From Streptomyces sp. Mut1 (GTDB lineage Bacteria > Actinomycetota > Actinomycetes > Streptomycetales > Streptomycetaceae): a stretch of 64,000 nt of DNA. Location: the NCBI RefSeq assembly GCF_030719295.1, contig NZ_CP120997.1:6086001-6150000 (forward strand), read 5' to 3'. The notes beneath the pieces are model-generated. The model was given only the letters and a program-made list of their open reading frames with translations. It did no database searches and had not been told where the DNA came from. Made by a program: the position numbers and the translations under genes. Below are positions 22,647-43,789 of this stretch, one piece after another. How positions within the stretch are numbered: the first letter of the stretch is position 1; every line of letters begins with the position of its first letter.

Positions 22647-23255
22647 ATGAGCATCCGCATCGTCGTGGCCGGAGAGTACGCATTGTCCGTCGAGGTGATG
22701 GCGAAGTACCTGGATACCGTGGCCGACTTTTCCGTGGTCGGAGCCGCAAAGCAGCATGATGATCTTCTGCCGGCCGTGGAGCGGTTAGAGCCGGCCGTCG
22801 CGGTGGTCGAGACGGGCACCGTGGACGAGGACGTGCTGGACATACTGGGCCAGTTGCGTACGACACGGCCGCAGTGCGGGGTTGCGCTGATTTCGAGTCA
22901 GTCCTCGCCGAATTCCACCGACCAGGCGATCAGGGCCGGGGTGCTGAGCGTGGTGTCCCTACAGGTCGAACTGCCGTACCTGATAGGGGCCATCCGCGGG
23001 GCCGCGGTGGGGTGTCTGACCATGGACCCGGGGCTGTTCGTCTCGCAGCCGGTGTCGCTCCACTGTCCACTGAGCGCCCGGGAGGCCGATGTGCTGCGGC
23101 TGACCGCCTCGGGCGCCTCGCTCAAGGAGATCGCCCGGGATCTCTACCTGGCGGTCGGCACCGTACGGAACCTGGCCTCGACCGCCATCAGGAAACTCCA
23201 GGCCCGCAACCGCTTCGACGCGGCGCGCATCGCCACCGAGCAGCGGTGGCTGTGA
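22647..23255 (+). CDS. LuxR-type regulator with a degenerate receiver domain
   Basis: A 202-residue NarL/FixJ-like protein. The C-terminal GerE helix-turn-helix is intact (LSAREADVLRLTASGASLKE, then VGTVRNLASTAIRKLQARNR). The receiver is atypical: the acidic pair at the N-terminus reads AGEYALS and the phospho-acceptor position in VAVVETG is Glu rather than Asp, so classical phosphorylation is unlikely. The ATG at 22647 follows a GGGGGG run. It flanks the thiopeptide cluster, convergent with its second operon, and is the only candidate pathway regulator there. Confidence 0.85.
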   Translation: MSIRIVVAGEYALSVEVMAKYLDTVADFSVVGAAKQHDDLLPAVERLEPAVAVVETGTVDEDVLDILGQLRTTRPQCGVALISSQSSPNSTDQAIRAGVLSVVSLQVELPYLIGAIRGAAVGCLTMDPGLFVSQPVSLHCPLSAREADVLRLTASGASLKEIARDLYLAVGTVRNLASTAIRKLQARNRFDAARIATEQRWL

Positions 23256-23268
23256 GGGCGGGGGCCTC

Positions 23269-24507
23269 TCAGGGTGCCGTGCTCCCCGTCAGCGGCTCCC
23301 GTGCCTCTCCCGTCGCGACGGCCTCCGCGTCATGGCCGTAGAGCCATCCCATGGCCCGCAGCCCCGCCAGGCCGTGCGGGTCCGCGGTGGCGCCGGGGTG
23401 GTGGGGGCGGTCCGGCCGGTGCAGGTACTGGGTGCTCCGGCGTGCGCCGCGCTGGATCAGCGTGGTGCGCGGCAGGCGCAGGTCCTGGTAGCGGCGGAGC
23501 GCGGCCGGGGTGTCCGCCGGCGCGGCCCGGCCCAGGCAGACGGCCAGGGTGACCGCGTCCTCGATCGCCTGGTTCGCGCCCTGGGCGAGGAAGGGGAGCA
23601 TGGGGTGGGCGGCGTCGCCGAGGAGGGCCACCCGGGCGGTGACCCAGTCGGGCAGGCTCTCGCGGTCGTGCAGGGGCCAGCGGCGTACCGTGTCGGCGGC
23701 GGCGATGAGGCGGGTGACCGTGGGGTTCCAGCCGTCGTAGGCGGCGGCGAGTTCGGCCGGGTCGCCCTCGGCCGTCCAGGACTCCTCGCCCGCCGAGGCC
23801 GCGGGGACCGTCGCGGTGAAGCTGATCTCCCGGCCCGCGGAGACCGGGTAGCACACCAGATGGCGTCCGGGGCCGGGCCAGACCCGGACCTCCGGTTCAC
23901 CGGCGGCCCAGGGGAGACGATCCGCCGGGACCAGGCCGCGGTAGGCGCTGCTGCCGGAGAACACGGGGGCGTCGCCGGCCAGCCGGGCCCGGACCGCGGA
24001 GTGCACGCCGTCCGCGCCGATCACCACATCCGCCCGGTGGCGGGCGCCCGAGGCGAAGGTGAGGTCCACGCCGCCGGGGTCCTCCGTCAGGTCCGTCAGC
24101 CGGTGGCCCGTCCGCACCTGGGCGCCGCCGACGGCTTCCCGCAGTACGCGGTGCAACTGGGCCCGGTGGACCGTGTAGTAGGGCGCGCCGTAGCCGTGTC
24201 GGCAGGCGTCGCCCAGTGCGGTGGTGTGGAGCGGGAGGTCGTCGTCCCAGCCGCGGATCCGCAGGGCGCGGGGGAGTACCGCGACCGCGCGGAGCGCTTC
24301 GGCGACGCCCAGGCGGTGCAGGAGCCTGGTGGCGTTGGGTGCCAGCTGGAGCCCGGCTCCCGCCCCGGCCGGTTCCGGGCTCCGCTCGAAGACGGTGCAG
24401 TCCACCCCTTCCCGCCGCAGGGCGAGGGCCAGGGTCAGCCCCGCGATGCCGCCGCCGATCACCGCCACGGCGGCGGCACGTGCCGGTACCTCCCGCGTCC
24501 TGGTCAC
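23269..24507 (-). CDS. FAD-dependent monooxygenase (salicylate hydroxylase-like), cluster tailoring
   Basis: A 412-residue class A flavoprotein monooxygenase: dinucleotide motif AVIGGGIAGLTLALALRREG, conserved VIGADGVHSAVR, and GDAAHPMLPFLAQGANQAIE. The closest kind is aromatic-acid hydroxylases of the salicylate/6-hydroxynicotinate type. The GTG at 24507 overlaps the stop of the dehydroquinate-synthase-like gene (GTGA), so it belongs to the operon making the aminohydroxybenzoate unit and probably hydroxylates or oxidatively decarboxylates that unit. The exact position is inference. Confidence 0.88.
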   Translation of the reverse strand: MTRTREVPARAAAVAVIGGGIAGLTLALALRREGVDCTVFERSPEPAGAGAGLQLAPNATRLLHRLGVAEALRAVAVLPRALRIRGWDDDLPLHTTALGDACRHGYGAPYYTVHRAQLHRVLREAVGGAQVRTGHRLTDLTEDPGGVDLTFASGARHRADVVIGADGVHSAVRARLAGDAPVFSGSSAYRGLVPADRLPWAAGEPEVRVWPGPGRHLVCYPVSAGREISFTATVPAASAGEESWTAEGDPAELAAAYDGWNPTVTRLIAAADTVRRWPLHDRESLPDWVTARVALLGDAAHPMLPFLAQGANQAIEDAVTLAVCLGRAAPADTPAALRRYQDLRLPRTTLIQRGARRSTQYLHRPDRPHHPGATADPHGLAGLRAMGWLYGHDAEAVATGEAREPLTGSTAP

Positions 24508-25622
24508 TGCTCGCGGCAGAACTCGTCGATGGGGTAGCCCACATGCCGGTCGGCCGTGGGGACGTAGCCCAGCAGCGTGTCGCCCGGGGCGAGTTCGGTG
24601 CAGTTCAGCACCACGCCGCCCGGCCCCAGCACCCGTACGTGCCAGTCGTCCTGGAGGATGAGGTTGACCCGTACGCCCTCCGGTGACACCGCGTCGACCG
24701 AGATCAGCGGTCTGGTCTCGACCTTGACCCGGCCCACCGGCACCACCCGGGTGCGTCCGGTGGAGTCCACCGCCAGTGCCGGGGCGCCCGCGTGGAGTTC
24801 GCTGAGGTAGTTGGTGCGGCCGTGCGGTGCGACGACGTAACTGTGCACGGCGCCGGCGTTCACCCGGAAGGGACGGGTCGGCATGTACGGCAGGGGGTGC
24901 GTCTCGCTGACGCACAGCACCATCCCCTTGGAGTAGGAGCCGACCAGCAGTCCCTCGTTCTCGCCGAGCTGGCTGCAGGTGTCGATACAGGCCCGCTCGC
25001 CCATGCCGATGTGCGTCGTGGCGGTGACGGTCAGTTCGGTCAGCGTCAGTTCACCGGCCGAGGAACGGGCCGCCTCCACCAGCGCGGTGGCGTCCCCCAC
25101 ACAGCGGCCGGGCATCATCACCCCGTCCGAGCCGAGTTCCAGCACCCCGAAGGTGATCGCCGCCTCCTCCGGGTCGCCGGCGGTGGTCACGATCGCGCCC
25201 TTGGAGCCCGCGGCGGCGGCGATGACGATCTCCAGCGGGATCTTGGTCGGATCGCGGAAGTCGAGGACGCTCCAGCGCTCGGTGCGCGCCGCGTGGCACG
25301 CCTCCTCCAGGCTCGTGGCGTCGGTGATCTCCACCAGGCGCCCGAACTCCACCTCGGGGTGGGCCTGTTCCAGCTCCGCGCGGCCGGCGAAGCCGGGCGG
25401 CAGGATGACGATGTCGGCCGCGCCGGGGAAGCACTCGTCCCGCCACCAGCCCTCACCGCTGGGCAGCAGCACCTTGCGGACGGTGGGCGGGAGGTCGGCC
25501 AGGGTCTGCAGGTCACCGGCGACGATGCCGTCGGTCCGCTGGTGCAGGGCCTCCTCGATGATCGCGGGCCGGGCGGTACCGGCGCCACGGATATCAAGCC
25601 AGCACAGCTTCTGTCCGTTCAT
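24504..25622 (-). CDS. 3-dehydroquinate synthase II family protein (GriH-like)
   Basis: A 372-residue protein of the dehydroquinate synthase II family: LCWLDIRG start, LPPGFAGRAELEQAHP, LEIVIAAAAGSKGAIVTTAG, VLELGSDGVMMPG, and the archaeal-type core TATTHIGMGERACIDTCSQL. In Streptomyces the GriH homologue converts the C7 aldol product of GriI into 3-amino-4-hydroxybenzoate. It overlaps the GriI-like aldolase by 29 nt, and the pair has no other obvious role in a non-archaeon. The ATG at 25622 follows GGGCAGTGTG, a weak ribosome binding site, as expected under coupling. Confidence 0.9.
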   Translation of the reverse strand: MNGQKLCWLDIRGAGTARPAIIEEALHQRTDGIVAGDLQTLADLPPTVRKVLLPSGEGWWRDECFPGAADIVILPPGFAGRAELEQAHPEVEFGRLVEITDATSLEEACHAARTERWSVLDFRDPTKIPLEIVIAAAAGSKGAIVTTAGDPEEAAITFGVLELGSDGVMMPGRCVGDATALVEAARSSAGELTLTELTVTATTHIGMGERACIDTCSQLGENEGLLVGSYSKGMVLCVSETHPLPYMPTRPFRVNAGAVHSYVVAPHGRTNYLSELHAGAPALAVDSTGRTRVVPVGRVKVETRPLISVDAVSPEGVRVNLILQDDWHVRVLGPGGVVLNCTELAPGDTLLGYVPTADRHVGYPIDEFCREQ

Positions 25623-26436
25623 CACACTGCCCTTCTGTCGTGTCGGCCACGAGCGGCTGGGGCTCGCCGTGCACCACGGCGGCGACCCGGGCGGCCATCC
25701 GGCGGGGATCGGCGGCCTGGAAGATGTTGCGCCCCATCGCGACCCCGGCGGCGCCGCCGAGCAGGGCGTCCCTGACGAACGCGAGCGCGTCGGTGCCCGA
25801 ACCACGGCGGGGACCGCCCGCGCACAGCAGCGGGATCGGGCAGGCGGCGACCACATCGCGCATCTCGGCCACGCTCCCCGCGTACGGGGCCTTGACCACG
25901 TCCGCGCCGAGGTCCGCGGCGAGCGTCGCCGCGTGCACCACCAGCTCCGGGGCCTGCGGATGGTCGATACCGGGGCCGCGCGGATAGACCATCGCCAGCA
26001 GGGGGAGGTTCCAGCGGTCGCACAGGTCCGCGACCCGGCCCAGGTCCCCGATCTGCTGCCGCTCGTCCGCCGAGCCCATGTTGATGTGGACGCTCACCGC
26101 GTCCGCCCCGAGCCGCAGCGCGTCCTCCACCGCCGTCACCAGGTACTTGGCGTCCGAGTCCGGCGCGTGCCGGGTACTCGCGCTGAGGTGGACGATCAGC
26201 GACATCCCGGCGAAACGGGACGGGCTGATGTGCCGCAGCACCCCCTTGTGGACGACCACGGCATCGACACCGCCCGCGGCCAGCTGGCCGGTGAGATGGT
26301 CGATGGTGCTGCCGCGAGGGACCACCGGGCCATCGGTGACGGAGTGGTCGAGCGGGGTGATCAGAAGCCGGCCGTCCCCGTGACGGAACAGCCTGCCGAG
26401 CCGCATCTCCCGCGCGAAATGCAGATATGACGTCAT
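25594..26436 (-). CDS. GriI-like aldolase (2-amino-4,5-dihydroxy-6-oxo-7-(phosphooxy)heptanoate synthase)
   Basis: A 280-residue DeoC/LacD-type class I aldolase: LLITPLDHSVTDGP, AVVVHKGVLRH, ADAVSVHINMGS, LPLLAMVYPRG, and the Schiff-base Lys candidate in GADVVKAPYAGS. GriI condenses aspartate semialdehyde with dihydroxyacetone phosphate, and GriH then aromatises the product. Both are present here side by side. The ATG overlaps the ligase stop (ATGA at 26433-26436). A 16-bp palindrome spans the junction. Confidence 0.9.
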   Translation of the reverse strand: MTSYLHFAREMRLGRLFRHGDGRLLITPLDHSVTDGPVVPRGSTIDHLTGQLAAGGVDAVVVHKGVLRHISPSRFAGMSLIVHLSASTRHAPDSDAKYLVTAVEDALRLGADAVSVHINMGSADERQQIGDLGRVADLCDRWNLPLLAMVYPRGPGIDHPQAPELVVHAATLAADLGADVVKAPYAGSVAEMRDVVAACPIPLLCAGGPRRGSGTDALAFVRDALLGGAAGVAMGRNIFQAADPRRMAARVAAVVHGEPQPLVADTTEGQCDERTEAVLA

Positions 26437-28082
26437 ATCGCTCTCCTCTCCCCGGTGGTTTCCCGCACGCCGGGTTCGCTGTCCGCCGCCTCCGCGAGGC
26501 CGCGGAGATACCGCACATCGGGCTTGCCGCTGTCGTTCGACGGCAGCTCGGGCCACCGGCTGATGTGCACCGGCACATGGGCCGAGTCCAGCCGCGCCCC
26601 GACATGGGCCCGCAGCCGGACGTCGTCGCCCTCACTCCCCGGACGCAGCGACACCGCCGCGTACACCCGCTCCACCCGGTCGTGGTCCCGTACGCCGAAC
26701 ACCACCGCCTCCCGCACCGCCGGATGCTCGGACAGGACGCGTTCCACGGCGGCCGGATGCACCTTCTGGCCGCCGCTCTTGATGACGTGGCCCAGGCGGC
26801 CGGTCAGCCGGAGCCTGCCGTACACGTCGAGACGGCCGAGATCGCCCGTGCGCAGCCGGCCGTCCGGGGTGGTGCCCTCCGCCGGGTCGCGGCCGAGGTA
26901 GCCGTCCATGGCTGTCGCGGACCGCACGCACACCTCGCCGGTCCCGCCCCTGGGGACGTCCCGGCCGGTCTCCGGGTCGCGCAGGCTCAGTTCCACCCAG
27001 GGGAACGGCCGGCCCACGGCCCCCAGCAGCTCGGGCTCCTGATGGTCCAGCCGGTCCAGGCCGCAGATGCCGCCCGCCTCCGATGAGCCGTACAGCTGGG
27101 ACAGCGGGCCGGCGAACCAGCGCAGCGCGTCGGCGATCCGGTGCGGCGCGGCCGGGGTCCCGCTGTACACCACCTGGCGCAGCGCGGACAGGTCCGGGCG
27201 GACGCCGGCCGCGGAGAGCCGTTCGGTGAGCCGGTAGAGGTGCGGCACCGCCAGATAGGTGTCCGTCACGGCGAGGCGGCCGAAGGCGTCCAGCACCTCG
27301 TCCGCGTCGAACCCCTCGTGCAGCACCACGGACCCGCCGGCGGCCAGCACCGCGTCCACCATGGAGCCCACCGTGTGGCTGACCGGGGTGACGGCCAGGA
27401 CGCGGGCGGGCCCGGTGGGGCCGGGGGCGGCCGGGTAGACGCCGACGGTCGAGTTCCAGGTCCGGTAGCTCTGGACGATCCCCTTGGGCAGTCCGGTCGT
27501 CCCGCTGGTGAAGGTGATCCGGGCGCGGACCCCGGGGGCGTACGCGGCCACGTCGTCAGGTCCGAAGCCGGCGTCCGGGGGCACCGGGGCCAGGGCGCCG
27601 CCTGCGGGTGGGGCCGAGCTGCCGGGGGCGGGCAGCAACAGGCCGGGCAGAGCGGGCGAGACCAGTGCGGCGGCCCGTACCGCCGTGGTCTCGTCGGCGA
27701 CCAGGAGGCGGCTGCCGGTGTCCCGCAGCACCTCGGCCTGGACCTCGGGCGGGAGCATCTCGGCGTCGCTGCGGGGGTTGGCCGCGCGGACCGACACCAC
27801 GGCCGCGCCCAGCAGATGCGCGGCGTAGCGCGCGAAGAGCGCCGTGGGGTGATTGGCCGCCGTGAGAAGGGCGACGGTGTCGCCCGGGGCGATCCCCCCG
27901 TCCCGTAGCGCGGCAGCCGTGTCGAAGACCAGGGACAGGCTCTCCCGCGCGGTGAGGCAGAGCCCCGACCAGTACACCGCCGGCGCGTCCGGGTGCTGTG
28001 CCCAGGTGTGCGAAAGCCGGAAGGCATAGTGCTCGTGCCGCGCCCAGGACGGGGGTATCCGCACGGGGGGACCAGCGGTCAT
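26433..28082 (-). CDS. Aryl-acid AMP ligase (adenylate-forming enzyme)
   Basis: A 549-residue adenylating enzyme with all core motifs: A3 TFTSGTTGLPKGIV, A5 QLYGSSEAGG, A7 DGRLRTGDLGRLD, A8 LTGRLGHVIKSGGQKVHP, and the catalytic Lys in NDSGKPDVRYL. It sits directly before the GriI/GriH-like genes and behind the precursor gene, so it most likely activates 3-amino-4-hydroxybenzoate or a hydroxylated derivative, as NosI does for the indolic acid of nosiheptide. No separate carrier protein was found, so AMP- or CoA-ester use is open. The ATG at 28082 has GGAGAGGAG upstream. Confidence 0.88.
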   Translation of the reverse strand: MTAGPPVRIPPSWARHEHYAFRLSHTWAQHPDAPAVYWSGLCLTARESLSLVFDTAAALRDGGIAPGDTVALLTAANHPTALFARYAAHLLGAAVVSVRAANPRSDAEMLPPEVQAEVLRDTGSRLLVADETTAVRAAALVSPALPGLLLPAPGSSAPPAGGALAPVPPDAGFGPDDVAAYAPGVRARITFTSGTTGLPKGIVQSYRTWNSTVGVYPAAPGPTGPARVLAVTPVSHTVGSMVDAVLAAGGSVVLHEGFDADEVLDAFGRLAVTDTYLAVPHLYRLTERLSAAGVRPDLSALRQVVYSGTPAAPHRIADALRWFAGPLSQLYGSSEAGGICGLDRLDHQEPELLGAVGRPFPWVELSLRDPETGRDVPRGGTGEVCVRSATAMDGYLGRDPAEGTTPDGRLRTGDLGRLDVYGRLRLTGRLGHVIKSGGQKVHPAAVERVLSEHPAVREAVVFGVRDHDRVERVYAAVSLRPGSEGDDVRLRAHVGARLDSAHVPVHISRWPELPSNDSGKPDVRYLRGLAEAADSEPGVRETTGERRAI

Positions 28083-28115
28083 GGGGCTCCTCTCCAGGAC
28101 GTGCGCGGGGACGGT

Positions 28116-28153
28116 CCCGCGTACCGGACCGGGAAGGCGGTCCGGTACGCGGG
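28116..28153 (-). terminator. Strong hairpin between precursor and biosynthetic genes (attenuator)
   Basis: CCCGCGTACCGGACCG (28116-28131) pairs perfectly over 16 bp with CGGTCCGGTACGCGGG (28138-28153); the loop is 6 nt. It lies 10 nt after the precursor stop and 33 nt before the ligase start, with no T-run. In RiPP operons such a hairpin partly terminates or protects the precursor mRNA so that precursor exceeds enzymes. Confidence 0.75.
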
Positions 28154-28162
28154 CACCTGCGA

Positions 28163-28366
28163 TCAGCAGCAGCAGCAGGTGGAGGAGGACGACGAACAGC
28201 AGAGGCTGACGTCCGCCGCCGCCTCGGAGGCGACGCTCAGGCTCGACGAGCTCGCGCCCATCTCCGGCAGGCCCACGCTGTCGGAGACCTCCAGCACCTC
28301 CAGCTCGTCGATGTCGAACGAGGCGAACAGGTCGCCGGCGGGGGTCTCGCTCGCGAGAGTGCTCAT
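28163..28366 (-). CDS. Thiopeptide precursor peptide
   Basis: A 67-residue precursor. The leader is acidic and carries FDIDELEVLEVSD followed by VGLPEMGAS, matching thiopeptide leaders (compare DLDIDDLEV- and LPE.GAS-type sequences). The C-terminus is Ser/Cys-rich: DVSLCCSSSSSTCCCC, ending in four consecutive Cys. A Ser-rich, Ala/Glu-containing stretch (SSSLSVASEAAADV) lies between the usual GAS boundary and the Cys-containing core, so the cleavage site is uncertain. The ATG at 28366 has GAAGGGATC upstream. Cys would become thiazoles and Ser/Thr dehydroamino acids or oxazoles, with two dehydroalanines forming the pyridine. Confidence 0.92.
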   Translation of the reverse strand: MSTLASETPAGDLFASFDIDELEVLEVSDSVGLPEMGASSSSLSVASEAAADVSLCCSSSSSTCCCC

Positions 28367-28603: not shown

Positions 28604-30169
28604 TTGAGCGCTGCGCCGCCCCCGGCCTCGGAAGAGGCCCCCGCCGACGTCCTCGTCGTCGGATTCGGCCCGGTCGGCCAGGTGTTGTCGATCCTGCTCG
28701 CCCAGCGCGGCCGGCAGGTCACCGTCGTCGAACGCTGGCCCCGGCCGTACCCGATGCCGCGCGCCGTCGCCTTCGACGCCGACGCCGCCCGCATCCTCGA
28801 CGCCGCGGGGGCCGGCCCCCACCTGAGCACGTTCGGGGAACCCTCCGAGGACTACGTGGTCGCCGACGCGGCCGGCCGCACCCTGCTCCGTATCGGGCTG
28901 GGCCACGACCCCGCCCACCGCTGGCCCGCGTCCACCTCCATGTACCAGCCGGGCCTGGAGGAGGCGTTGGAGCAGCGCGCCGCGCGGATACCGAACCTGC
29001 GGCTGCTGCGCGGGCACGAGGCGGTCCGGCTGACCGCCCGGGAGACCGGCGCGGACCTCACGGTGCGCCCCGTCGCCGGGGGCCCGGAGCGGGTGCTGAG
29101 GGCCCGCTGGATCGTCGGGTGCGACGGCGCCAACAGCATGGTGCGCGAGGCGGTGGGCGCCACGCTGAGCGAGGGCGGCTTCGCACTGGACTGGATGGCC
29201 TGCGATGTGACTCCGCACCGGGCGGCGGACTTCCCGCCGTGCAACGTGCAGATCGCCGACCCCGCCCGCCCCCGCGTCGCGGTCTCGGCCGGGCCCGGGC
29301 ACCGCCGCTGGGAGTTCATGCGGCTGCCGGGCGAGGCCCCCGAGGCGTTCGGCACCGCCCGGAACGCCTGGCGGCTGCTGGCCATGTTCGGCGTCGAACC
29401 GGGCAACGCCACGCTGGAACGCCACGCCGTCTACACCTTCACCGCCCGCAACGCGGACCGCTGGCGGGCCGGCCGGGTGCTGCTCGCGGGGGACGCCGCC
29501 CACCAGATGCCGCCGTTCGCCGGGCAGGGCATGTGCTCCGGCATCCGCGACGCCGGCGACCTGGCGTGGAAGCTGGACCGGGTGCTGGCCGGTGCCGCGC
29601 TGCCGGAGCTGCTGGACAGCTACGAGGCCGAGCGCCGCCCGGACGCCCAGGCGAGCATCGACCGGTCGGTGGCGCTCGGCCGGATGATCTGCCTGACCGA
29701 TCCGGTCGCCGCGGCACACCGGGACAGGGCGATGGCGTCCCGGCCGGACGCGGACGTCGCCCGCCCCGCACAGCCCGGCGTCCACACCCCGGACGGGGGG
29801 CTGTACCACCGGGGGGCCGACGGCACGGCGGGCTTCGGCGCGGGGCTGCCGGTCCCGCCCGGGGTACTGGGCGGCGCCGGGCACCTCGGCCCGGACCCGG
29901 TGCTCCTCAGCACGGACGGCCCCGCCGCGCCGCTCGCCCCCGGGCTGCCTCGGTGCGCGGCACGCTGGCGGCTGCGGACGCGTCACCTGCGGCCCGGGGA
30001 CCCCGCCGACGCGCCGCTGCGGGGCTGGCTCGGGTCGCTCGGCGCGACGGCGGCGGTCGTCCGCCCCGACTGCCGGGTCTACGGCCTGGCCCGGAACCCG
30101 GCGGAGACCGAGGCGCTGCTGAGCGGGCTGGCCGGCCACTGGTCGCCGTCCCTGGAGCCGACCGCGTAA
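28604..30169 (+). CDS. FAD-dependent monooxygenase, MhpA/PgaE-like
   Basis: A 521-residue flavoprotein aromatic hydroxylase: VLVVGFGPVGQVLSILLAQRG, WIVGCDGANSMVREAVGATL, and GDAAHQMPPFAGQGMCSGIR; the last 120 residues are the thioredoxin-like C-terminal domain of this subgroup. The start is TTG at 28604, preceded by GGGAGGGGAGAG. It is divergent to the precursor gene and is therefore part of the cluster. It would hydroxylate the aminohydroxybenzoate unit or an aromatic position of the peptide; which one is unknown. Confidence 0.88.
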   Translation: MSAAPPPASEEAPADVLVVGFGPVGQVLSILLAQRGRQVTVVERWPRPYPMPRAVAFDADAARILDAAGAGPHLSTFGEPSEDYVVADAAGRTLLRIGLGHDPAHRWPASTSMYQPGLEEALEQRAARIPNLRLLRGHEAVRLTARETGADLTVRPVAGGPERVLRARWIVGCDGANSMVREAVGATLSEGGFALDWMACDVTPHRAADFPPCNVQIADPARPRVAVSAGPGHRRWEFMRLPGEAPEAFGTARNAWRLLAMFGVEPGNATLERHAVYTFTARNADRWRAGRVLLAGDAAHQMPPFAGQGMCSGIRDAGDLAWKLDRVLAGAALPELLDSYEAERRPDAQASIDRSVALGRMICLTDPVAAAHRDRAMASRPDADVARPAQPGVHTPDGGLYHRGADGTAGFGAGLPVPPGVLGGAGHLGPDPVLLSTDGPAAPLAPGLPRCAARWRLRTRHLRPGDPADAPLRGWLGSLGATAAVVRPDCRVYGLARNPAETEALLSGLAGHWSPSLEPTA

Positions 30170-30194
30170 CGCCCCGGCGCCCGGGTGGGTCCCG

Positions 30195-31857: not shown

Positions 31858-31873
31858 CTCCACCGGGGCGGGC

Positions 31874-36318: not shown

Positions 36319-38273
36319 GGGAACGGGTGGGGGTCGTAGGGCGCCTTACGGTGCTCCGCGGGGGTGCCCGCGAGCGCGGCCGCCAGCCGGGGCAGCCCGC
36401 TCAGCCGCTGCTGGGGCTGGCCGAAGCACATCGGGGTGATGCCGGGCACGACCGCCTTGGCGACCGCGAGCCCCAGGTCCCGGTGCTCACGGGTGGACTG
36501 GTCCACCATCAGGACACGTTCGAGACCGGCGTCCGCGAAGAGCCCGGCGGTGAAGTCCAGCGCCCGGCGCACATCGCCGCCCGCCGCCTCCCGCAGCCGG
36601 TGCGGCCAGGCGGGAAAGGCGTCCCGCAGGGCGACCCGGCGCCCGCCGAGCACCGAGACGACGCGCGGCAGCGCCTCCGGCAGCGAGTACAGCTTCAGAT
36701 GGTCGTGCAACTGGTCCACCAGCCACGGATCGGCGAACATCGGCTCGATGTCCTCGCGGGTCCAGGTCACCGGATCGGTGACCAGCTGCGCCAGCTCCCA
36801 CAGGGCGGTACGCGCCACGGCCACCGGGTCGCAGCCGGACCCCGCGGCGGAGAAGCTGGCCGGGAAGGGCTGTTCCCGGTTCACCGCGAGCGACCAGACG
36901 ACCGGGAGGTCGATGTCGCCCGTCGCCACCAGCAGATGGACGTCGAAGCCGTGCGCGTCGATCAGGTCCAGCAGGCGCCGCGAGGCCGGATCGGTGACGG
37001 AGGAGAGCTCGATCGTCGGCAACGGAGCCGCCCGGTGCCAGGCGTTCAGGAAGGCGTCCCGCTCCGCCAGTTCGAACAGCGAGTGCAGCACCGCCTCCTC
37101 CGGCGACGAGCCCAGGGCGCAGCCGCTGGAGGAGTCGTGGAAGTAGAAGGTGCGTGCCCGCGAGTCGCTGCGGCGCACCGTGTCGTACGCCCGCCCGAAC
37201 CGGTGGTCGTACTGGTAGAAACCGATCTCCGCCGGGACGAGCGACGACGGCCCGCCGTGCAGGTCCCGGGCCCACACCCAGTCCATCGGGGTGTCCGGGC
37301 TGTACGGCGTGACCCGGCTGCCGGGGTGGGCCAGCTGCTCCTCGGTGTACTGGCCGAGGGTGCCGGGGTCCACGGCCCGGTCGGCGACCTCGCGGTAGCT
37401 GACCGCGCCGACGACGGCCGCCTCGTGGGGGAAGCCCCCCAGCCGCTCGTACGCCTCCAGGATGGCGACCGGCTCGGCGTCGGCGAAGGTCCCCGCGCGG
37501 GCGAAGCCCATGGCCAGCGACTCCGGCAGGGAGGCCACACTCATGGCGTACGGCGGCGACGCCTCCCGCACCACCCGGTCGACCGGCCCGAACCGGGGGT
37601 CCACCGTCCGCGCGCGGAGCAGTCCGGGGCCGAGCAGTCCGGCACCGTCCGCGCCGCGCGTCGGCCCGTCCGGTCCGGCGAGTATCCGCCGCACCGGCCA
37701 CGGGGCGGGCGGGGCCGGGTCGAGCCCGGCGGGGTCGGCGGCGCAGACCCGGCAGCGGGCGCTGCGCCGGACCAGATGGCGGCGGGAGGAAGGCCCGCCG
37801 AGCGCGTACAACTCACCGGCTTCCAGGGGGCGTTCGTCCAGGCTCCGGAGGACGGGGGCCAGCATTTCCAGCAGGAACGGGCGGCGCATCGCGGGACGCG
37901 AGACCGGCCGCAGGGGGTCGGCGGCCAGGGGATGGCCGGCGACCACCCGGGAACGCAGCTCCGCACAGCCCGCGCAGCCGCCCTCCGCCCCGGGGACCCA
38001 GTACGGGCCGATCAGGACCTCACCGCCGAACAGCCGGACCGACAGATGCGGCCGGCCGCCGGCCGACGCGGCGTCCACCCGCTCCCGCTCCCAGTCCGGG
38101 TTCCAGCCGCGGTTCAGGGAGAGGGAGCCGGGCCGGGCGGCGACCAGCGGGAGCAGCGCTCGGGCCCACTCCCCGGCGGCGGGCCCGGTGAGGTCGGGAC
38201 CGGTCGCCACCTCCGGGTCCGGGCCGGCGGCGGGCTGCGGCCGGGCGGGGGCCGTCATGATCTCACCGGGCAT
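36315..38273 (-). CDS. YcaO cyclodehydratase (azoline-forming)
   Basis: A 652-residue TOMM-type YcaO. The N-terminal part has zinc-site-like CAGCAEL and CRVCAAD pairs. The YcaO domain shows ALGSSPEEAVLHSLFELAER and DAFLNAWH (ATP/Mg-binding Glu residues), SAAGSGCDPVAVARTALWEL, and the Pro-rich C-terminal tail YDPHPFP, which is diagnostic for azoline-forming YcaOs. It uses ATP to cyclise Cys (and possibly Ser/Thr) of the core. ATG 38273 has GAGGAGCC upstream and overlaps the ThiF-like gene by 11 nt; an alternative ATG lies 15 nt inside. Confidence 0.93.
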   Translation of the reverse strand: MPGEIMTAPARPQPAAGPDPEVATGPDLTGPAAGEWARALLPLVAARPGSLSLNRGWNPDWERERVDAASAGGRPHLSVRLFGGEVLIGPYWVPGAEGGCAGCAELRSRVVAGHPLAADPLRPVSRPAMRRPFLLEMLAPVLRSLDERPLEAGELYALGGPSSRRHLVRRSARCRVCAADPAGLDPAPPAPWPVRRILAGPDGPTRGADGAGLLGPGLLRARTVDPRFGPVDRVVREASPPYAMSVASLPESLAMGFARAGTFADAEPVAILEAYERLGGFPHEAAVVGAVSYREVADRAVDPGTLGQYTEEQLAHPGSRVTPYSPDTPMDWVWARDLHGGPSSLVPAEIGFYQYDHRFGRAYDTVRRSDSRARTFYFHDSSSGCALGSSPEEAVLHSLFELAERDAFLNAWHRAAPLPTIELSSVTDPASRRLLDLIDAHGFDVHLLVATGDIDLPVVWSLAVNREQPFPASFSAAGSGCDPVAVARTALWELAQLVTDPVTWTREDIEPMFADPWLVDQLHDHLKLYSLPEALPRVVSVLGGRRVALRDAFPAWPHRLREAAGGDVRRALDFTAGLFADAGLERVLMVDQSTREHRDLGLAVAKAVVPGITPMCFGQPQQRLSGLPRLAAALAGTPAEHRKAPYDPHPFP

Positions 38274-40062
38274 GTGCGGGCTCCTCGGCGTGCGCCGGGG
38301 CTTCGGGGGAAGCCGGGGGGACGGGGCTCGGGACGGGGCTCAGCGCGACCGGGCCGAAGAAGACGGGCAGGGTGCCGAGCACCGGGTCGGACCGCAGCGG
38401 TGTCCCCACGGGCTCCCCGGGGAGGAGGCCCGCCGCCGCGCGGGCGGCGATCTCCGCGCGCAGCCGCGCCAGGGCTTGCGGACCGGCCGTCCGCAGGGCC
38501 CCGGTGTGCACGGCCGCGACCCCGGCACCGGGCCGCAACCCGGCCGCGATGCGGCCGGCGAGGACCGTACCGAGGCAGCCGTGCGCGGCCTCCTCCCCGG
38601 TCGGGCCCCAGCCGTGTCCGTACACTTCGCCGGTCTCGGCGTGCACCGCCCGCGCCAGCGGCCAGCCGATCCCCGGTATCTCCAGCAGCCGCACCACGAC
38701 CGGGAGTCCGTGCTCCTCGGCCAGAGCGCGCCGCACCACCTCGGTGGCGGGCAGCAGGCGTACGGGGTCCGGCCGCTCACTCGGTGCGGCGCGCTCGGTC
38801 AGCAGCCTGAGGGCGCCGTCCAGCAGCCACTGGTCCTCGGTGATCCCGGCGGCGCCCACCGCCGGACCGCCTTCCGGGACGGCCAGTTGACGCAGGGCCT
38901 CCAGGGCGACCGCGACGGTGGCACCCTGCTGGTCCCTGGCCCAGCCGATGACCCCGGCCCCCTTCCGGCCGGGCAGCCCCGCCTCGCGCAGCGCCAGCGG
39001 CAGCTGCGGCAGGTCGCCGCCCTCGGCCAGTTCGAACAGCCCGGTCCAGGGCGCGGACAGCGGGGCGACGACGCCTTGCAGCGCCGGGTCCGTCACCGGG
39101 GCGTTCCCGCTCTCCACGGGAGCCGGAGCCGGAGCGGGCTCCGGCACGGTGGCACCCGCCGCGGTGCGCAGCATGTCCGCCGACAGGTCCTCCCCGTGCA
39201 CGACATGCGCGCCGCCCGCCGTGCCGACACCGGCCAGCACCTCGAACACCAACTGCCCGGCCAGGGCCCCCGCCAGCGCGTCGGCGCCGGGCCGGGGCGC
39301 GGGCCCGGTCTCCCGGGCAGCGGCCCAGTCCTCGGCACGGGCCGCCAGCGCGTCGGCGGTGTGCGCGCCGGACCCGCCGGTCACCACCGGGCCGGCCAGG
39401 GCGGTGGATCCGAGCCGCACCGGGACCAGCGGCACACCGTCGGGGAGCCCCAGCAGCCGGGCGGCGGCCTCCGCGACACCGGGGCCCTCGGCGCACCAGA
39501 TCACCGCGTCCACATCGCTCACGTCCAGACCGTCCACGCCGTCCGTGAGCAGCTTCGCGCCCAGCCGCCGCGCGGTGGCCACCGCGTCCTGCGGGTCGGT
39601 GGGGGCGAGCACCAGCCGGCCCGCACCGGCCCGCGCCAGCCCACGGGCCGCGGGCAGCACGGCCGCGCAGGGCCCGTGCAGCAGGACCCGGGCGGCGCGC
39701 AGCGCGCCGAAGGCGGCGTACGGGTCGTCGCTGAACGCCTCCAGATGGGCGAGCGCCTCACCGAAACGCTCCCGGGTCTCCTCGTCCGGTGCGCCGGCGG
39801 TGAACCGCTCCGGGTCCAGCAGCAGGTCGCGGGCGCGCAGTTCGTCGGTGAGCCTGCGCACGGCGGGCCTGGCCCGCTCCGAGCCGAGCGCCGTCACCAG
39901 CTCGTCCTCCGTGGCGCCCGTCTCCAGCAGCGGGACGCAGACATCCGCGACGGTGAGCAGCACCTTGGGACCCAGAATCACGAACTGGGTGCGCGGCCCA
40001 CTGAAGTAGACGCCTCCCGTGACGGGTGCGTAGTGCAGATACGGCCGTGACCTCATCGTCAT
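38263..40062 (-). CDS. Ocin-ThiF-like partner with N-terminal RRE (leader-binding)
   Basis: A 599-residue TOMM partner protein. Residues 1-85 form a winged-helix RiPP recognition element (RPYLHYAPVTGGVYFSGP ... LTVADVCVPLLETGATEDEL ... VRRLTDELRARDLLL) that binds the precursor leader. The middle is an E1-like/ocin-ThiF fold (VLLHGPCAAVLPAARGLARA), and the rest is a docking domain for the YcaO. The ATG at 40062 overlaps the glutamylation gene's stop (ATGA). It presents the precursor to the cyclodehydratase. Confidence 0.85.
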   Translation of the reverse strand: MTMRSRPYLHYAPVTGGVYFSGPRTQFVILGPKVLLTVADVCVPLLETGATEDELVTALGSERARPAVRRLTDELRARDLLLDPERFTAGAPDEETRERFGEALAHLEAFSDDPYAAFGALRAARVLLHGPCAAVLPAARGLARAGAGRLVLAPTDPQDAVATARRLGAKLLTDGVDGLDVSDVDAVIWCAEGPGVAEAAARLLGLPDGVPLVPVRLGSTALAGPVVTGGSGAHTADALAARAEDWAAARETGPAPRPGADALAGALAGQLVFEVLAGVGTAGGAHVVHGEDLSADMLRTAAGATVPEPAPAPAPVESGNAPVTDPALQGVVAPLSAPWTGLFELAEGGDLPQLPLALREAGLPGRKGAGVIGWARDQQGATVAVALEALRQLAVPEGGPAVGAAGITEDQWLLDGALRLLTERAAPSERPDPVRLLPATEVVRRALAEEHGLPVVVRLLEIPGIGWPLARAVHAETGEVYGHGWGPTGEEAAHGCLGTVLAGRIAAGLRPGAGVAAVHTGALRTAGPQALARLRAEIAARAAAGLLPGEPVGTPLRSDPVLGTLPVFFGPVALSPVPSPVPPASPEAPAHAEEPAHAR

Positions 40063-42626
40063 GCGGTCTTTCCTCCGTAGGTGAAGGGAGCACCGGCGGT
40101 CCGGGCGATCTCGACCACCCATTCCGCCGCGTGCCGGGAGTCCGCCACGGTGGGCAGGGCCTCTTCCAGATAGCCGGGGCTCCGCCGTTCCATCAGCCGG
40201 GGCAGCACCCGTACGCTCACGGCGCTCTCCAGGTCGGTGTACTGGGGCTTCTGCCGCTGCCGGTGTTCCTCGGCGCCGAAGCCGAGCGCGGCGGCGGCCT
40301 GGAGCGCCTCCGTTCCGTAGGTGTCCTCCAGCGGTGTCTTGAGGACCACTTCGGCGGGTGCGCCGTGCCGGGCGCGCCAGCGGGCGAGTGCCCGCAGCCG
40401 GTCGGTCTCCTCCCGGCCGGCCGTGACCGCTTCGGCCAGTTCCCTCCCGCCGTACCAGCGCCGCCTGGCCAGCACCGCGCGCCCCACCGAGACCCGGGGG
40501 CAGACCCGGGTGGCGTCACCCGAACCGCCCGCCGACGCGAGCCAGTCGCCGACGAAGTCCTCCATCAGCCGGCCGCCGCTGACCAGCCACGCCGCGATAC
40601 GCACCGGGGCGGGCAGGAACTCGGGGTGGCCGCTGCCCAGGGTCAGCACCCGCAGGTCGCGGCCCTCGGCGTCGCGGACGCACAGCGCGTCGGTGGCCGG
40701 ATCGTGGGCGAGGCGCAGAGTGAACCAGCCCTCCGCGTCGATGCCGTGGGGCAGCACCCGGGCGTGCGCGTTGACGTTCAGCCGGTGCAGCCCGAGGTCC
40801 TCGGCGACCCGCCGGCCGTCCGCCCCGTACTGCCGCCGCAGCCGCTGTGCCAGATACGGCAGGGCCGGGCCGTCCAGCTCGCGGTCGGCGCCGAGGAACC
40901 GGCCGTAGAGCATGCCGTGCCCGGCGTACGCGTCGTTGTAGATCAGCCGGTCCTGCCAGGGCTGCACCAGCACGCCGTAGGCCAGCGGGTCCTGGCGGAA
41001 GCGGTCCGGGAGCGCGGCGACCAGGCCGCGGGCCTCCCGCGCGGTCAGGACCACGTCCCGGGCGTCGGGGCCCGCGTCCGTGAGCCTGCTCCGCATCCGG
41101 GCCAGGACGTCCACGCGCAGTTGGTGCAGCCGGCCGAGGGAGCCGTCGGCCGGGCCGCCGTCCTGGGGGATCTCGCCGTCCAGCGAACCGCCCCGCCGGT
41201 AGACCTCGGCGGAGATCCGTTCGGCGTGCTCGGCGAGCGGCACCTCGGCCCCCGCTCCGTACCACTCCACGAAGATCGCGGAGAGCACCGCGCGGATGTC
41301 GTGCAACCGGTCGAAGACCGACAGGAGTTCCACCACCGCCGCCATGTCGTCCAGGGCGCCGTGCCAGGGGGCGGTGTCCACCGTCAGGGACGGCAGTACG
41401 TAGTCCTCCTCCACCAGGACCTGCGCGGGCCGGCCGGCGCGGTTGCTGAGGTCGGCGAGTGTGCCGCGCAGCCGGGTGAGCACGGCGGTCCGCCGCTCGG
41501 CCGGGGCGGCGGCGACCTCCGGGAGCAGCCCGTTCACCTCCGCCAGGAGCGGGGCGCTGGGCAGGCCGGGGCGGTCGAGCGCCGTACGGAAGGGCAGGTC
41601 GCCGTCCTCGGGGCCGTCGCTCAGGCAGAGGATTCCCGCACGCACGGCCCCCCGCACCGCGGTCAGCGCGTCCTCGGCCGGGCAGCCGAACTCCCCGGCC
41701 ACCTCGGCCGCGACGGCGGACACCTGCCGGGCGCCCAGGGCCACGGCGTTCAGCATCGGACGCACCGGCCCCGCGACCGAGGTGGAGAGCCGGCGGATGA
41801 GGCCCCCGGAGGGCTGAAGGAACATCAGCTTCTCGCGCCCCGGCCCGAATTCGGAGGTCGGCGGCAGCTGCACCCAGTCCTCCGGCCGCACCGCCCGCCC
41901 CGGTTCGGCCTCGTACCTGAGTCCGCCGAGGACGTAGTGCAGCATGATCCGGTCCAGCCCGACGACCGGGACCGCGCCGTCGGGGGCCACGTCGTCGAGC
42001 GCGACGCCCCGCGGGCCGGGGCGGGCCAGCCCGACCGCGGTGAACCGGGAGAGCGGGCTGGTGCGGATCATGGCGCGGGTGACGTACTGGACCAGGCCGC
42101 GTTCGGACTTGCGCAGCCGGGCGGACAGCTTCCCCCCGCCCTCCAGGGCGGCCCGGTAGCGGTCGGCGCCGGCGGCCACCTCCGGTGCGACCAGGGCGAG
42201 CGAACGTCTGAGGTCGTCATCGGCGAGGAGCCCCGCCAGCCGTTTCCGCTCCCGGCCGGCGGCCTGCGGATACTCCCGGTCCAGCGCCTCGCGCAGCGCG
42301 TCCCGCTCGGAGCGGGCCGCCCGCCAGCGGGCCACCGCGGGCACCGGCTCGTCCCCGGTGCGCGGGGCGCGGTCGTTGTGGATGTCCCGGCGCAGCGCGA
42401 TCAGCGGGCCGCGCCCGCCGGGGTCGGCGGTGGCGCCGATCAGCTGGTGCAGCTGAGCCGAGCAGACCTCCGCCGCGGCCTCGACCTCGTTCTCCGCGGC
42501 GCACACCTCGTCCAGCAGCGCGGCCAGTACGGGGTCCGCGAGCCGCGCCCTGGGCAGCGGGTTGACGCGCAGCATCCAGAGCGGTTCAGCGGCGGGGGCG
42601 TCCTCGCCCGTCGTCCCGGGCCTCAC
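40059..42626 (-). CDS. LanB-type glutamylation protein of the split thiopeptide dehydratase (TbtB-like)
   Basis: An 855-residue Lant_dehydr_N protein: RTSPLSRFTAVGLARPGPRG is the conserved tRNA-Glu-dependent LanB block, followed by LPPTSEFGPGREKLMFLQPS, VLVEEDYVLPSL, YNDAYAGHGMLYGRFLG and RVCPRVSVGRAVLARRRWY. It transfers glutamate from Glu-tRNA to Ser/Thr of the core; the separate protein at 33702 eliminates it. The true start is the GTG at 42626, overlapping the stop of the preceding gene (GTGA); the frame upstream of it has no homology. Confidence 0.92.
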   Translation of the reverse strand: MRPGTTGEDAPAAEPLWMLRVNPLPRARLADPVLAALLDEVCAAENEVEAAAEVCSAQLHQLIGATADPGGRGPLIALRRDIHNDRAPRTGDEPVPAVARWRAARSERDALREALDREYPQAAGRERKRLAGLLADDDLRRSLALVAPEVAAGADRYRAALEGGGKLSARLRKSERGLVQYVTRAMIRTSPLSRFTAVGLARPGPRGVALDDVAPDGAVPVVGLDRIMLHYVLGGLRYEAEPGRAVRPEDWVQLPPTSEFGPGREKLMFLQPSGGLIRRLSTSVAGPVRPMLNAVALGARQVSAVAAEVAGEFGCPAEDALTAVRGAVRAGILCLSDGPEDGDLPFRTALDRPGLPSAPLLAEVNGLLPEVAAAPAERRTAVLTRLRGTLADLSNRAGRPAQVLVEEDYVLPSLTVDTAPWHGALDDMAAVVELLSVFDRLHDIRAVLSAIFVEWYGAGAEVPLAEHAERISAEVYRRGGSLDGEIPQDGGPADGSLGRLHQLRVDVLARMRSRLTDAGPDARDVVLTAREARGLVAALPDRFRQDPLAYGVLVQPWQDRLIYNDAYAGHGMLYGRFLGADRELDGPALPYLAQRLRRQYGADGRRVAEDLGLHRLNVNAHARVLPHGIDAEGWFTLRLAHDPATDALCVRDAEGRDLRVLTLGSGHPEFLPAPVRIAAWLVSGGRLMEDFVGDWLASAGGSGDATRVCPRVSVGRAVLARRRWYGGRELAEAVTAGREETDRLRALARWRARHGAPAEVVLKTPLEDTYGTEALQAAAALGFGAEEHRQRQKPQYTDLESAVSVRVLPRLMERRSPGYLEEALPTVADSRHAAEWVVEIARTAGAPFTYGGKTA

Positions 42627-43789
42627 GCGACGGTCCCGGCAGGCAGGCCCGCGGCCGTCCGGGCCTGTGCCGTCCGGGCCAGGCGGTCGCTCCAGGATTC
42701 GCCCAGCACCTCGTCCACGGTCTCCGCGATGGCGTAGCACAGGTAGTAGCGGTGCATCGGGGACACGTCCAGCAGCAGGAGCTGCTGGTAGAACAGGTTG
42801 ATCAACAGGCGGTAGGACGCGAACCAGTCGGTGGTGCCGGCCACGGCCCCCGAGGCGTTCACCGCGGTGTGGAAGTCGCTGCCCCGGTGGCCGGTGACGT
42901 CCTCCTGGCCGGGCGGTCCCATGGTGCGCCGGTCGAAGCCGCCCTCCCGTTCCTCCAGCGTCCGCAGGGTCAGCGTCTCCTGCGCGACGGCCGAGTCGAA
43001 GACCCCCATGCAGTAGCCGAACGCCTGACGCCAACGGGCCGCCGAGGGGCCGCCGGTGTCCGCCAGGGTCTGCTCGACCAGGGCCCGCAGCAGCGGTGCG
43101 TCACCCGCGAGCCGGCGGGCGAAGACCGGCCGTACGTCCTTGCGGGGCGCCGCCCAGGAGAGGAACGCCTCGGCGTGACTGCGCAGCGAGAACACCCCGA
43201 ACGGGATACCGGAGTGGTGGGACGCCGCCAGCGCGACCATCGCCTCCGCCACCCGGGTGGGCAGGGTGCCCGCACCCGCGGCGGCCTCGGCGACCGCCGC
43301 CGTCAGCGGCCGGTTGATCCGGGTCAGCGCCAGATCGCACAGGGCGTTCAGCGGCTCGGGCCAGGTGGCGGTCCGTGTGGCGTCCAGCCATTCGAGCCGG
43401 CCGTGCGGGTGCATCGGCAGATAGGGCGGCTCGACCCGCTCCAGCCTGCCGAACTCCCGTGCGCGGACGAGGTAGTCCTCCTCGCTCAGCTGCTCATCGG
43501 GGACCAGCGGCCCCGCGTCCAGCTTCGCCGCGATGTCGTCCCACGGCAGCACGGCCCCCGCCTCACCCCCGGCCGGCCGGGCCACCAGGTCCACATGGGG
43601 GCCGTGCAGCCAGCCCCGCCGCAGATACAGCACCGGGGCGTTCAGCTCCTCGTCGAGCGCCCGGACGGCGGGCAGGACGGCGTTCGCCAGCCACTGGGGA
43701 TGGATGCCCCCTCGCGTGAAGAGCCGGACTCCGGTGGTGATGCCAGGGGCACGGGCCGGAATTGCAGCGGGTTCGGTATCCAGGTTCAA
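42623..43789 (-). CDS. Probable thiopeptide pyridine synthase ([4+2] aza-cyclase, TbtD/NosO-like)
   Basis: A 388-residue protein distantly related to LanB elimination domains (TIGR03891-type): GVRLFTRGGIHPQWLANAVL, LYLRRGWLHGPHVDLVAR, and a C-terminal helix pair LLINLFYQQLLLLDVSPMHR with YYLCYAIAETVDEVLG. The elimination residues are missing (GPHVDL in place of HLRLR, no HMxxNR), as expected for the paralogue that has become the pyridine-forming enzyme. It is the first gene of the operon. It would condense two dehydroalanines and release the leader. Confidence 0.78.
   Translation of the reverse strand: MNLDTEPAAIPARAPGITTGVRLFTRGGIHPQWLANAVLPAVRALDEELNAPVLYLRRGWLHGPHVDLVARPAGGEAGAVLPWDDIAAKLDAGPLVPDEQLSEEDYLVRAREFGRLERVEPPYLPMHPHGRLEWLDATRTATWPEPLNALCDLALTRINRPLTAAVAEAAAGAGTLPTRVAEAMVALAASHHSGIPFGVFSLRSHAEAFLSWAAPRKDVRPVFARRLAGDAPLLRALVEQTLADTGGPSAARWRQAFGYCMGVFDSAVAQETLTLRTLEEREGGFDRRTMGPPGQEDVTGHRGSDFHTAVNASGAVAGTTDWFASYRLLINLFYQQLLLLDVSPMHRYYLCYAIAETVDEVLGESWSDRLARTAQARTAAGLPAGTVA

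Follow-up and report, generated by a model that had tools for sequence, protein, structure and literature searches.

Gene Content of the Locus

The window analyzed here is a stretch of 64,000 nt from Streptomyces sp. Mut1 (contig NZ_CP120997.1, positions 6,086,001 to 6,150,000), whose genome comprises 7,990,879 bases in four contigs. Between positions 22647 and 43789, it carries genes predicted to make a thiopeptide along with a cassette predicted to make 3-amino-4-hydroxybenzoate (3,4-AHBA, or AHBA), and the relation between the two is the subject of this report. Down the minus strand from 43789, the order is TbtD, TbtB, a TbtF/PbtF-like protein, YcaO (TbtG), dehydrogenase (TbtE), TbtC, an ABC transporter pair, MgtE, the precursor, an AMP ligase, GriI, GriH and a FAD monooxygenase (FAD1), while FAD2 and a LuxR regulator lie on the plus strand. 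The original prediction, made from the letters of the window, had named the precursor at 28163-28366 and, after it (28082 to 23269), an AMP ligase, the GriI-like and GriH-like genes and a FAD monooxygenase, and family and PDB scans agree with it. The features are:

42623-43789, minus: TbtD-like pyridine synthase (NCBIfam TbtD_PbtD_pyrid, E 7.6e-38, 130.6 bits, below the cut-off of 325)
40059-43034, minus: TbtB-like glutamylating dehydratase (Pfam Lant_dehydr_N, E 8.9e-15, 54.3 bits, cut-off 28)
38263-40122, minus: TbtF/PbtF-like leader-binding protein (weak match to PDB PbtF 8t19, E 2.5e-4, residues 23-99)
36315-38273, minus: YcaO cyclodehydratase, TbtG-like (Pfam YcaO, E 7.8e-67)
34780-36318, minus: azoline dehydrogenase, TbtE-like (Pfam Nitroreductase, E 4.6e-5, 24.1 bits, cut-off 23.5)
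33702-34763, minus: TbtC-like elimination protein (Pfam Lant_dehydr_C, E 9.4e-36, 124.7 bits, cut-off 24.4; TIGR03891, 95.6 bits, cut-off 48.45)
28163-28366, minus: thiopeptide precursor (NCBIfam thiazolyl_B, 32.4 bits, cut-off 30)
28096-28165, minus: intercistronic hairpin, precursor stop to ligase start (16 pairs, -40.8 kcal/mol, z -3.96)
26433-28082, minus: AMP ligase, amide bond synthetase group (best PDB matches 6sq8 and 6h1b; tree)
25594-26436, minus: GriI-like aldolase (NF005556, 303.4 bits, cut-off 241; MJ0400 homologue, E 2e-67)
24504-25622, minus: GriH-like 3,4-AHBA synthase (Pfam DHQS, 351.6 bits, cut-off 22.2; NF002625, 547.4 bits, cut-off 375)
23269-24507, minus: FAD1, probable AHBA-tailoring monooxygenase (from PDB relatives and the GriH neighborhood)
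28604-30169, plus: FAD2, aromatic monooxygenase of type A clusters (Pfam FAD_binding_3, E 1.8e-61)
32710-33705, minus: ABC transporter ATP-binding protein (Pfam ABC_tran, TIGR01188)
31874-32725, minus: ABC transporter permease (weak Pfam ABC2_membrane match, E 5.6e-4, below cut-off; longer open reading frame (ORF) 31874-33145)
22647-23255, plus: LuxR-type regulator (Pfam GerE, E 1.8e-12), which occurs together with the cluster in relatives

Although the TbtD-like protein misses the NCBIfam equivalog cut-off, its profile matches PbtD (PDB 5w98, E 9.1e-18), and Y334 aligns with the Tyr that reads F in 8ejz and is invariant in the six rows of alignment A1 (made without the TbtD of genome G204, whose match holds an in-frame TGA), so that it is predicted to be a thiopeptide pyridine synthase. 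The TbtB ORF overlaps TbtD and its true start is uncertain; TbtB and TbtC together have the appearance of a split LanB, with separate glutamylation and elimination proteins. The YcaO, F protein and dehydrogenase correspond to a putative azole-forming set, in which the F protein is recognized by its weak PbtF match and is kept at the same position in relatives. The permease is likewise kept next to the ATPase in relatives with the gene order of the window.

The precursor ends in LPEMGA followed by the core SSSSLSVASEAAADVSLCCSSSSSTCCCC, and its assignment as a leader with a Cys/Ser/Thr core is supported by thiazolyl_B, with Pfam Thiopep_pre narrowly missed (21.1 bits, cut-off 23.5). The precursors of relatives share an LPEMGAS-like leader end and then a Ser-rich core that closes with Cys. 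Because every core read ends in Cys, the C terminus of the mature peptide is likely a thiazole-4-carboxylate. These statements cover the cores of all precursors read, apart from G043 (leader remnants without a core), Micromonospora musae and locus L113, the last two being cases in which the motif search gave no precursor.

Consistent with the original description, the genes from the ligase to FAD1 (28082 to 23269) have overlapping stops and starts: the ligase and GriI share ATGA, GriI and GriH 29 bases, and GriH and FAD1 GTGA. The 'exception' models BagB_FevI (360.9 of 500 bits) and BagC_FevH (555.3 of 750) missed their cut-offs, yet are the top-scoring models for the GriI/GriH pair, and TIGR01949 was narrowly missed (278.3 of 299.45 bits). 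The Lys of the AD.VK motif of the aldolase is invariant in all 23 clusters of this kind found in the genus (see below). With a GriI aldolase adjoining a GriH synthase, the predicted product is 3,4-AHBA. The nearest PDB relatives of FAD1 are tropone 2-monooxygenase, a decarboxylating vanillate hydroxylase, 6-hydroxynicotinate 3-monooxygenase and a decarboxylating 4-hydroxybenzoate enzyme; a more distant one is 4bjy, which we take to be 3-hydroxybenzoate 6-hydroxylase. Several of these aromatic-acid hydroxylases decarboxylate. The best NCBIfam model of FAD1, 3-hydroxybenzoate 6-monooxygenase, falls far below its cut-off (284.9 of 459 bits).

Precursor and ligase do not overlap, and the 80-base gap between them is occupied by the strong hairpin, so that a single precursor-ligase transcript can only be presumed. 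Hairpins of differing sequence (roughly 15-20 pairs, some with a mismatch) were found in all nine loci of the window's type that were tested, at 2.2-5.3 standard deviations below 100 simple shuffles per locus. The window and G155 in this set are one species, and G115 and G066 are near-identical; G043, G500, G679 and other named loci of the type were outside it. The hairpin fits an operon whose expression would be damped after the precursor.

Linkage of the Thiopeptide Genes and the AHBA Cassette

TbtD was searched for in 392 genus genomes, with up to four candidates scored in each (genomes and loci are given G and L numbers). A match was present in 45, of which 22, including the source genome, were close (at least 51% identity, more than 345 bits) and 23 were weaker only. 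In all 22 genomes with a close TbtD, the genes for GriH, GriI, the ligase and FAD1 lie in the same ~25 kb. None of the 23 with a weaker match (G003, of type D below, is counted here) has a linked GriH, and G058 alone among them has a GriH at all, about 6.8 Mb away. GriH itself (E <= 1e-30) is present in 83 of the 392 genomes, 60 of them without this cluster. The 23 top-scoring GriH (at least 548 bits) are those of the 22 close-TbtD genomes plus G135, which has the same cluster on a contig that begins inside the thiopeptide genes. In a tree with 21 other GriH, the GriH of the 23 clusters are monophyletic (support 100/98).

Beyond the genus, a search of 394 genomes of the class gave a TbtD match in eight: the source genome, G500, G679, G443, G553, G726 (on a contig of 11,799 bases), and the weak G711 and G685. 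The cassette is also present in G500, G679, G443 and G553, and G500, G443 and G553 represent three other families. Among 44 loci of named relatives, 36 were taken (L089-L122, L124 and L125; at least 46% identity, many from the same genomes as the genus search), the remainder being L123 (39%) and L129 (48%, partial), both type D, and L126-L128 and L130-L132 (about 30%). In 32 of the 36, a GriH shares the contig at a distance of up to about 18 kb: 21 by locus scan, five as genomes of the genus search, and six by coordinates, for which contig identity was deduced from matching positions. Micromonospora musae, with two TbtD genes, is counted twice. Three of the four loci without GriH (L104, L105 and L117) stop at contig ends first, and the fourth, L119, is of type D. 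The species include S. pini, S. barkulensis, S. megasporus, S. tardus, S. tanashiensis, S. canus, S. olivaceus, S. sulphureus, S. anulatus, Actinacidiphila soli and M. musae.

The linked clusters show at least four gene orders. Type A is that of the window and accounts for 10 of the 23 genus clusters; at the position of FAD2, the nine other genus loci of this type, as well as G500 and G679, have a homologue (48-98% identity). Type B (13 of 23) has its aryl genes divergent and to the far side of TbtD, includes a multicopper oxidase as well as a second azoline oxidase, has FAD1 far downstream, and is without FAD2 in the cluster; no FAD2 homologue was found in the 13 loci, the two weak matches (30-33%) being well outside the cluster genes. 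In type C, FAD1 directly follows TbtC, and G443 and G553 show further orders. The core is identical in all 13 genus type B genomes and in G443 and G553, which belong to other families. Since the relatives are not independent, no p-value is attached to the co-occurrence, and its weight rests on the rearrangement. The thiopeptide genes and the 3,4-AHBA cassette thus very probably belong to one pathway, as judged from gene linkage. The original prediction had proposed mining for TbtD-like genes with GriI/GriH pairs, and this is borne out by the 22 of 22 genus genomes; it had also named, as grounds for giving it up, aryl genes standing independently of the precursor in all relatives, and these are instead linked wherever the contig reaches, type D (three loci) excepted. 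Its term 'precursor operon' describes only the window's type, where precursor and aryl genes share a strand on either side of the hairpin gap, since precursor and aryl genes diverge in sister types.

FAD1 homologues (46-54% identity) were found within about 4 kb of GriH in eight of 20 other GriH loci (19 of the 60 GriH genomes without the cluster, plus a second GriH from G115; the stretches spanned 9-17 kb), and FAD1 thus fits AHBA chemistry. The source genome also has a second, distant GriH (50% identical, G000:C2:59730-60836, L002 and L087), which is accompanied by a GriI on a 330-kb contig. In L160, a GriH locus without thiopeptide genes, an amidohydrolase (8986-9891) lies near GriI/GriH, an arrangement that we regard as reminiscent of benzoxazole pathways; no amidohydrolase was found among the window proteins in the family scans.

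Several other features of the sister clusters were noted. A 327-amino-acid ORF between precursor and TbtD in type B (L049, 9749-10732) has homologues in all 12 other genus type B loci and matched no family above cut-off. Two further type B ORFs were rejected: B108 lies opposite an ABC-2 permease ORF (L050, 17440-19020) and is antisense to it, and B301 overlaps the end of the same ORF, its rejection being less sure. The type B multicopper oxidase was considered as a phenoxazinone synthase and set aside, its best PDB matches being bilirubin oxidase and other laccases. The type A locus of S. pini (L039) has a methyltransferase and a multicopper oxidase (10346-12616) divergent from TbtD, and the M. 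musae loci (L102, L118, L135-L137) form one cluster with two TbtD-like genes, two that are FAD1-like, and a further YcaO that is very distant (24%).

The AMP Ligase

The ligase scored highest against PDB entries 6sq8 (223 bits) and 6h1b (219 bits), followed by 8pyy, 8pyx and 8ppp (204-208 bits), which we take to be ShABS, and the next ligase reached 143 bits. Entries 6sq8 and 6h1b were taken as McbA: the residues named in the relevant passages of PMC6282839 land on the correct chain letters, and 6h1b reads A at K483 and has five chains, agreeing with the McbA description there. The catalytic Lys483 of McbA is kept in the window ligase, which, by closest sequence group and by this residue, would be an enzyme of the McbA type. 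When the 392 genus genomes were searched with it (three candidates scored per genome), the 23 best ligases were those of the 23 thiopeptide clusters.

Loci of the next-best ligase group were taken from seven genomes, and three of them (G267, G286 and G275) were scanned. In each, a 5-aminolevulinate synthase (TIGR01821, 531-551 bits) adjoins the ligase and acyl-coenzyme A (CoA) ligases are close by, a trio that is presumably the C5N pathway, with the divergent ligase as its amide synthetase. The C5N amide synthetase joins an amine of the ortho-amino-enol type to a range of acids. In a tree of 27 rows, 14 of the 23 thiopeptide ligases fell together with six ligases of the next group and with McbA, and five acyl-CoA ligases stood outside; the branches of McbA and of the type D ligase are long. 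The thiopeptide ligases form a clade of their own. Since the genome of G286 is without GriH, the substrate shared across the ligase group is likely the amine. No match to 5-aminolevulinate synthase was found in the thiopeptide loci searched, unlike in C5N clusters.

The three type D loci (S. hygroscopicus L129, S. huasconensis L123 and strain WAC06614 L119) have the precursor, TbtD and ligase, with no GriH in the stretches examined and no close FAD1 (best 113 bits). GriH is absent from the S. hygroscopicus genome at E <= 1e-30 and from that of S. huasconensis at E <= 1e-20; in WAC06614, a GriH (66%) is on another contig, so that linkage cannot be judged there. Type D suggests that the constant partner of the ligase is the peptide. 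Its weight is moderate, as the S. huasconensis locus is in pieces (frameshifts or sequencing errors) and L129 is without other Tbt genes and has a partial TbtD match, so that the S. hygroscopicus cluster may be decaying. A C5N unit was considered for type D and rejected, there being no 5-aminolevulinate synthase in the stretches examined.

A Proposed Pathway and Its Alternatives

From the genes, their homologies, linkage and conservation, we infer a union of peptide and aryl unit through an amide of defined direction and site, with a preceding reaction by FAD1. In this scheme, TbtF, TbtG and TbtE would form thiazoles and oxazoles in the core in a leader-dependent manner, TbtB and TbtC would dehydrate serines, and TbtD would join two dehydroalanines, probably including that from the Ser right after GA, into a pyridine, with the leader shed. 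Separately, GriI and GriH would make 3,4-AHBA, which FAD1 would hydroxylate and perhaps also decarboxylate. The free C-terminal thiazole-4-carboxylate would then be adenylated by the AMP ligase and coupled to the aromatic amine. Oxidases acting later (FAD2, or the multicopper oxidase in sister clusters) may oxidize or cyclize the resulting o-hydroxyanilide cap. We give a probability of about 0.52 to the central claim, that the ligase amidates the C-terminal thiazole carboxylate of a ribosomal thiopeptide with the amine of an o-aminophenol derived from aminohydroxybenzoate. A C-terminal cap is favored because the ligase family consists of amide synthetases and because the cores end in Cys. The original prediction had left the choice between an AHBA-derived tether, cap or benzoxazole-like unit; that the AHBA cassette belongs to the same pathway is very probable, and the choice narrows in favor of the cap. 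For asukamycin, PMC11213898 reports acylation of 3,4-AHBA at its amino group by a different type of enzyme, AsuC2, and this amine is thus a known acceptor.

Several observations weigh against the cap. Two of the three carboxylates at the amine entrance of McbA are changed in the window ligase (E400 to G and D463 to S), and the one kept of E221, E400 and D463 is not invariant among the 23; D201/L202 of McbA are also not kept, and the ligase retains a KSGGxK loop, which we regard as typical of CoA ligases. The stretch from GA-S to Cys-Cys is 11 residues longer in the window and its near kin than in G330 or G115, which makes use of the Ser after GA uncertain; G391 likewise has a longer stretch before Cys-Cys, and against G330, G115 or G135 the difference is about 10 residues. 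Should that Ser take part in the ring, only the run of 5-9 Ser could supply its partner, and the ring may be larger or may start from another Ser. Pieces of nonribosomal peptide synthetase condensation and adenylation domains lie beside the ligase in L123 and L129, the two type D loci scanned. Finally, no product has been seen, and the S. venezuelae thiopeptide with the type B core is given as 'not detected' in the pertinent part of PMC9769785.

The chief rival, which we consider rather unlikely, is a side ring or tether, in which the ligase would activate the carboxylate of (hydroxylated) AHBA for attachment to the peptide as an ester, thioester or amide, at a Ser, a Cys or some other group, as with the indolic acid of nosiheptide. 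The AHBA carboxylate would be free for this and the ligase and GriI genes overlap, but no carrier protein or NosK-like transferase was recognized among the proteins scanned. A 43-46% homologue of the ligase lies 9-17 kb from GriH in G267, G189, G223 and G319, so that an AHBA-derived acid could be the substrate there, which also counts against the cap. Ligase homologues are nevertheless atypical of other GriH loci: eighteen of the 20 stretches were without a ligase match above 50 bits and two had matches of 29-30% only; G267 is one of the 18, its homologue being 14 kb off and beyond the stretch examined. A side ring also accords with the proposal of the ahbamycin authors, in the passage of PMC10179220 on this gene, that a ligase gene overlapping ahbH encodes AHBA adenylation. 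Set against these points are the amide-synthetase-like character of the ligase and its retention in type D, where two of three genomes show no GriH.

A second rival is that of two separate, neighboring products, the cassette making a small molecule of its own (a ligase-made AHBA amide, a phenoxazinone or a siderophore) and sharing no more than its regulation with the thiopeptide. GriH does occur apart from this cluster, in 60 of the GriH genomes and at the second, distant locus of the source genome, but no close relative whose contig is long enough lacks the linkage, which persists across at least four gene orders and four families; together with the overlapping genes and the separate clades of thiopeptide GriH and ligases, this makes the reading improbable. 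More doubtful still is a reading in which a related aminobenzoate or another C7N acid, and not 3,4-AHBA, is the product of the GriI/GriH-like pair: BagB_FevI and BagC_FevH, the models whose cut-offs were missed (as was TIGR01949, narrowly), are still the best-scoring ones, and the motif residues are invariant in the 23 clusters.

The C-terminal cap can be extended into a more detailed scheme, which as a whole we hold to be unlikely. FAD1 would hydroxylate 3,4-AHBA at C1 with loss of CO2 to give 2-aminohydroquinone, the ligase would use this amine to amidate the C-terminal thiazole, and oxidation of the cap by FAD2 (type A) or by the multicopper oxidase (type B) would yield an aminoquinone or thiazolyl-benzoxazole. 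The ligase lineage would have been borrowed from C5N-type amide synthetases, and the products would be a redox-active thiopeptide class.

Neighboring Genes

A magnesium transporter gene, MgtE (30263-31768, minus), is inserted between the exporter and FAD2. It was discarded as a pathway member, as among the loci around genus TbtD only the window and G155, a strain of the same species (TbtD identity 98%), have it. An alpha/beta hydrolase gene beside TbtD (44056-44880) was considered as a NosK-like transferase and discarded, being present only in the window, G155 (= L089) and L090. ARAGORN called a tRNA-Pro at 42281-42368 (plus), which sits within the TbtB ORF on the opposite strand and is probably false. 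At 15623-22414 (minus) is a STAND-type ATPase gene that weakly matches an EACC1-associated caspase model, with genes for a WD40 protein and a RES-domain protein as neighbors; the set looks like a conflict or signaling system, and its ATPase and WD40 genes recur only in G155 among the genus TbtD loci. At 45144-47374, a CobW-like GTPase gene occurs with genes for ribosomal proteins L28 and S14, which is not tied to the cluster and to our mind resembles a zinc-limitation set.

Comparison with Known Systems

The cluster resembles those of the thiomuracin/GE2270 type (TbtA-G, PbtA-G) in its precursor, split LanB, YcaO, F protein, dehydrogenase and pyridine synthase; we know of no aryl acid or amine pathway in clusters of that type. 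Thiopeptides of the nosiheptide/thiostrepton type do have an extra aromatic unit (indolic or quinaldic acid, from tryptophan) and an AMP ligase, and the nosiheptide unit depends on radical SAM chemistry, a carrier protein and a hydrolase-fold transferase. The window differs from these, as no radical SAM family was recognized among its proteins in Pfam and NCBIfam scans and no carrier-protein family among the cluster proteins in Pfam scans. The ligase groups with those of the 5-aminolevulinate synthase loci, presumably the C5N amide synthetases of manumycin-type clusters. To our knowledge, amide bond synthetases such as McbA and ShABS have no known substrate among ribosomal peptides. These two are the best PDB relatives of the ligase and share its catalytic Lys, while two of the three amine-side carboxylates differ (PMC6282839, PMC10804368).

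The GriI/GriH pair is shared with the pathways of grixazone, bagremycin and ahbamycin. Grixazone and bagremycin are small molecules without a ribosomal peptide. The same holds for ahbamycin (PMC10179220). In the open-access literature, as far as its searchable text goes, no report relevantly joining thiopeptides with 3-amino-4-hydroxybenzoate was found (PMC12224297 included), and earlier mention in subscription papers or supplements is possible; a survey of azole-containing ribosomal peptides (PMC4603692) matched none of the terms tried. Biosynthetic gene cluster (BGC) 18 of the laboratory strain S. venezuelae NRRL B-65442, a cryptic thiopeptide with the core SSGSIGTSSSSSSTCSAC, is described in parts of PMC9769785 and PMC11256431, the thiopeptide being not detected in the one and cryptic in the other, and those parts are silent on AHBA. 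Its thiopeptide genes are RS25565-25620, and PMC11256431 reports raised expression of the cluster in three sigma-factor mutants. Its core is that of the type B clusters, which have the same TbtD clade, ligase, GriI, GriH and FAD1, and this identity suggests that GriI and GriH are present in BGC 18 as well. Type B differs from the window in its core and gene order, in having a multicopper oxidase and second azoline oxidase, and in lacking FAD2. Since its core is that of the undetected S. venezuelae thiopeptide, the prediction gives chemists a mass to seek.

If the proposal is correct, a thiopeptide family with members in 23 of the 392 genus genomes sampled (about 6%), and in three or more other families of the class, would carry a unit from the AHBA route, not one derived from tryptophan. 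It would also place on a ribosomal peptide a lineage of amide synthetases that is elsewhere linked to small ortho-amino-enol amines, and a thiopeptide capped with an AHBA-derived ring would probably be of a kind so far unseen.

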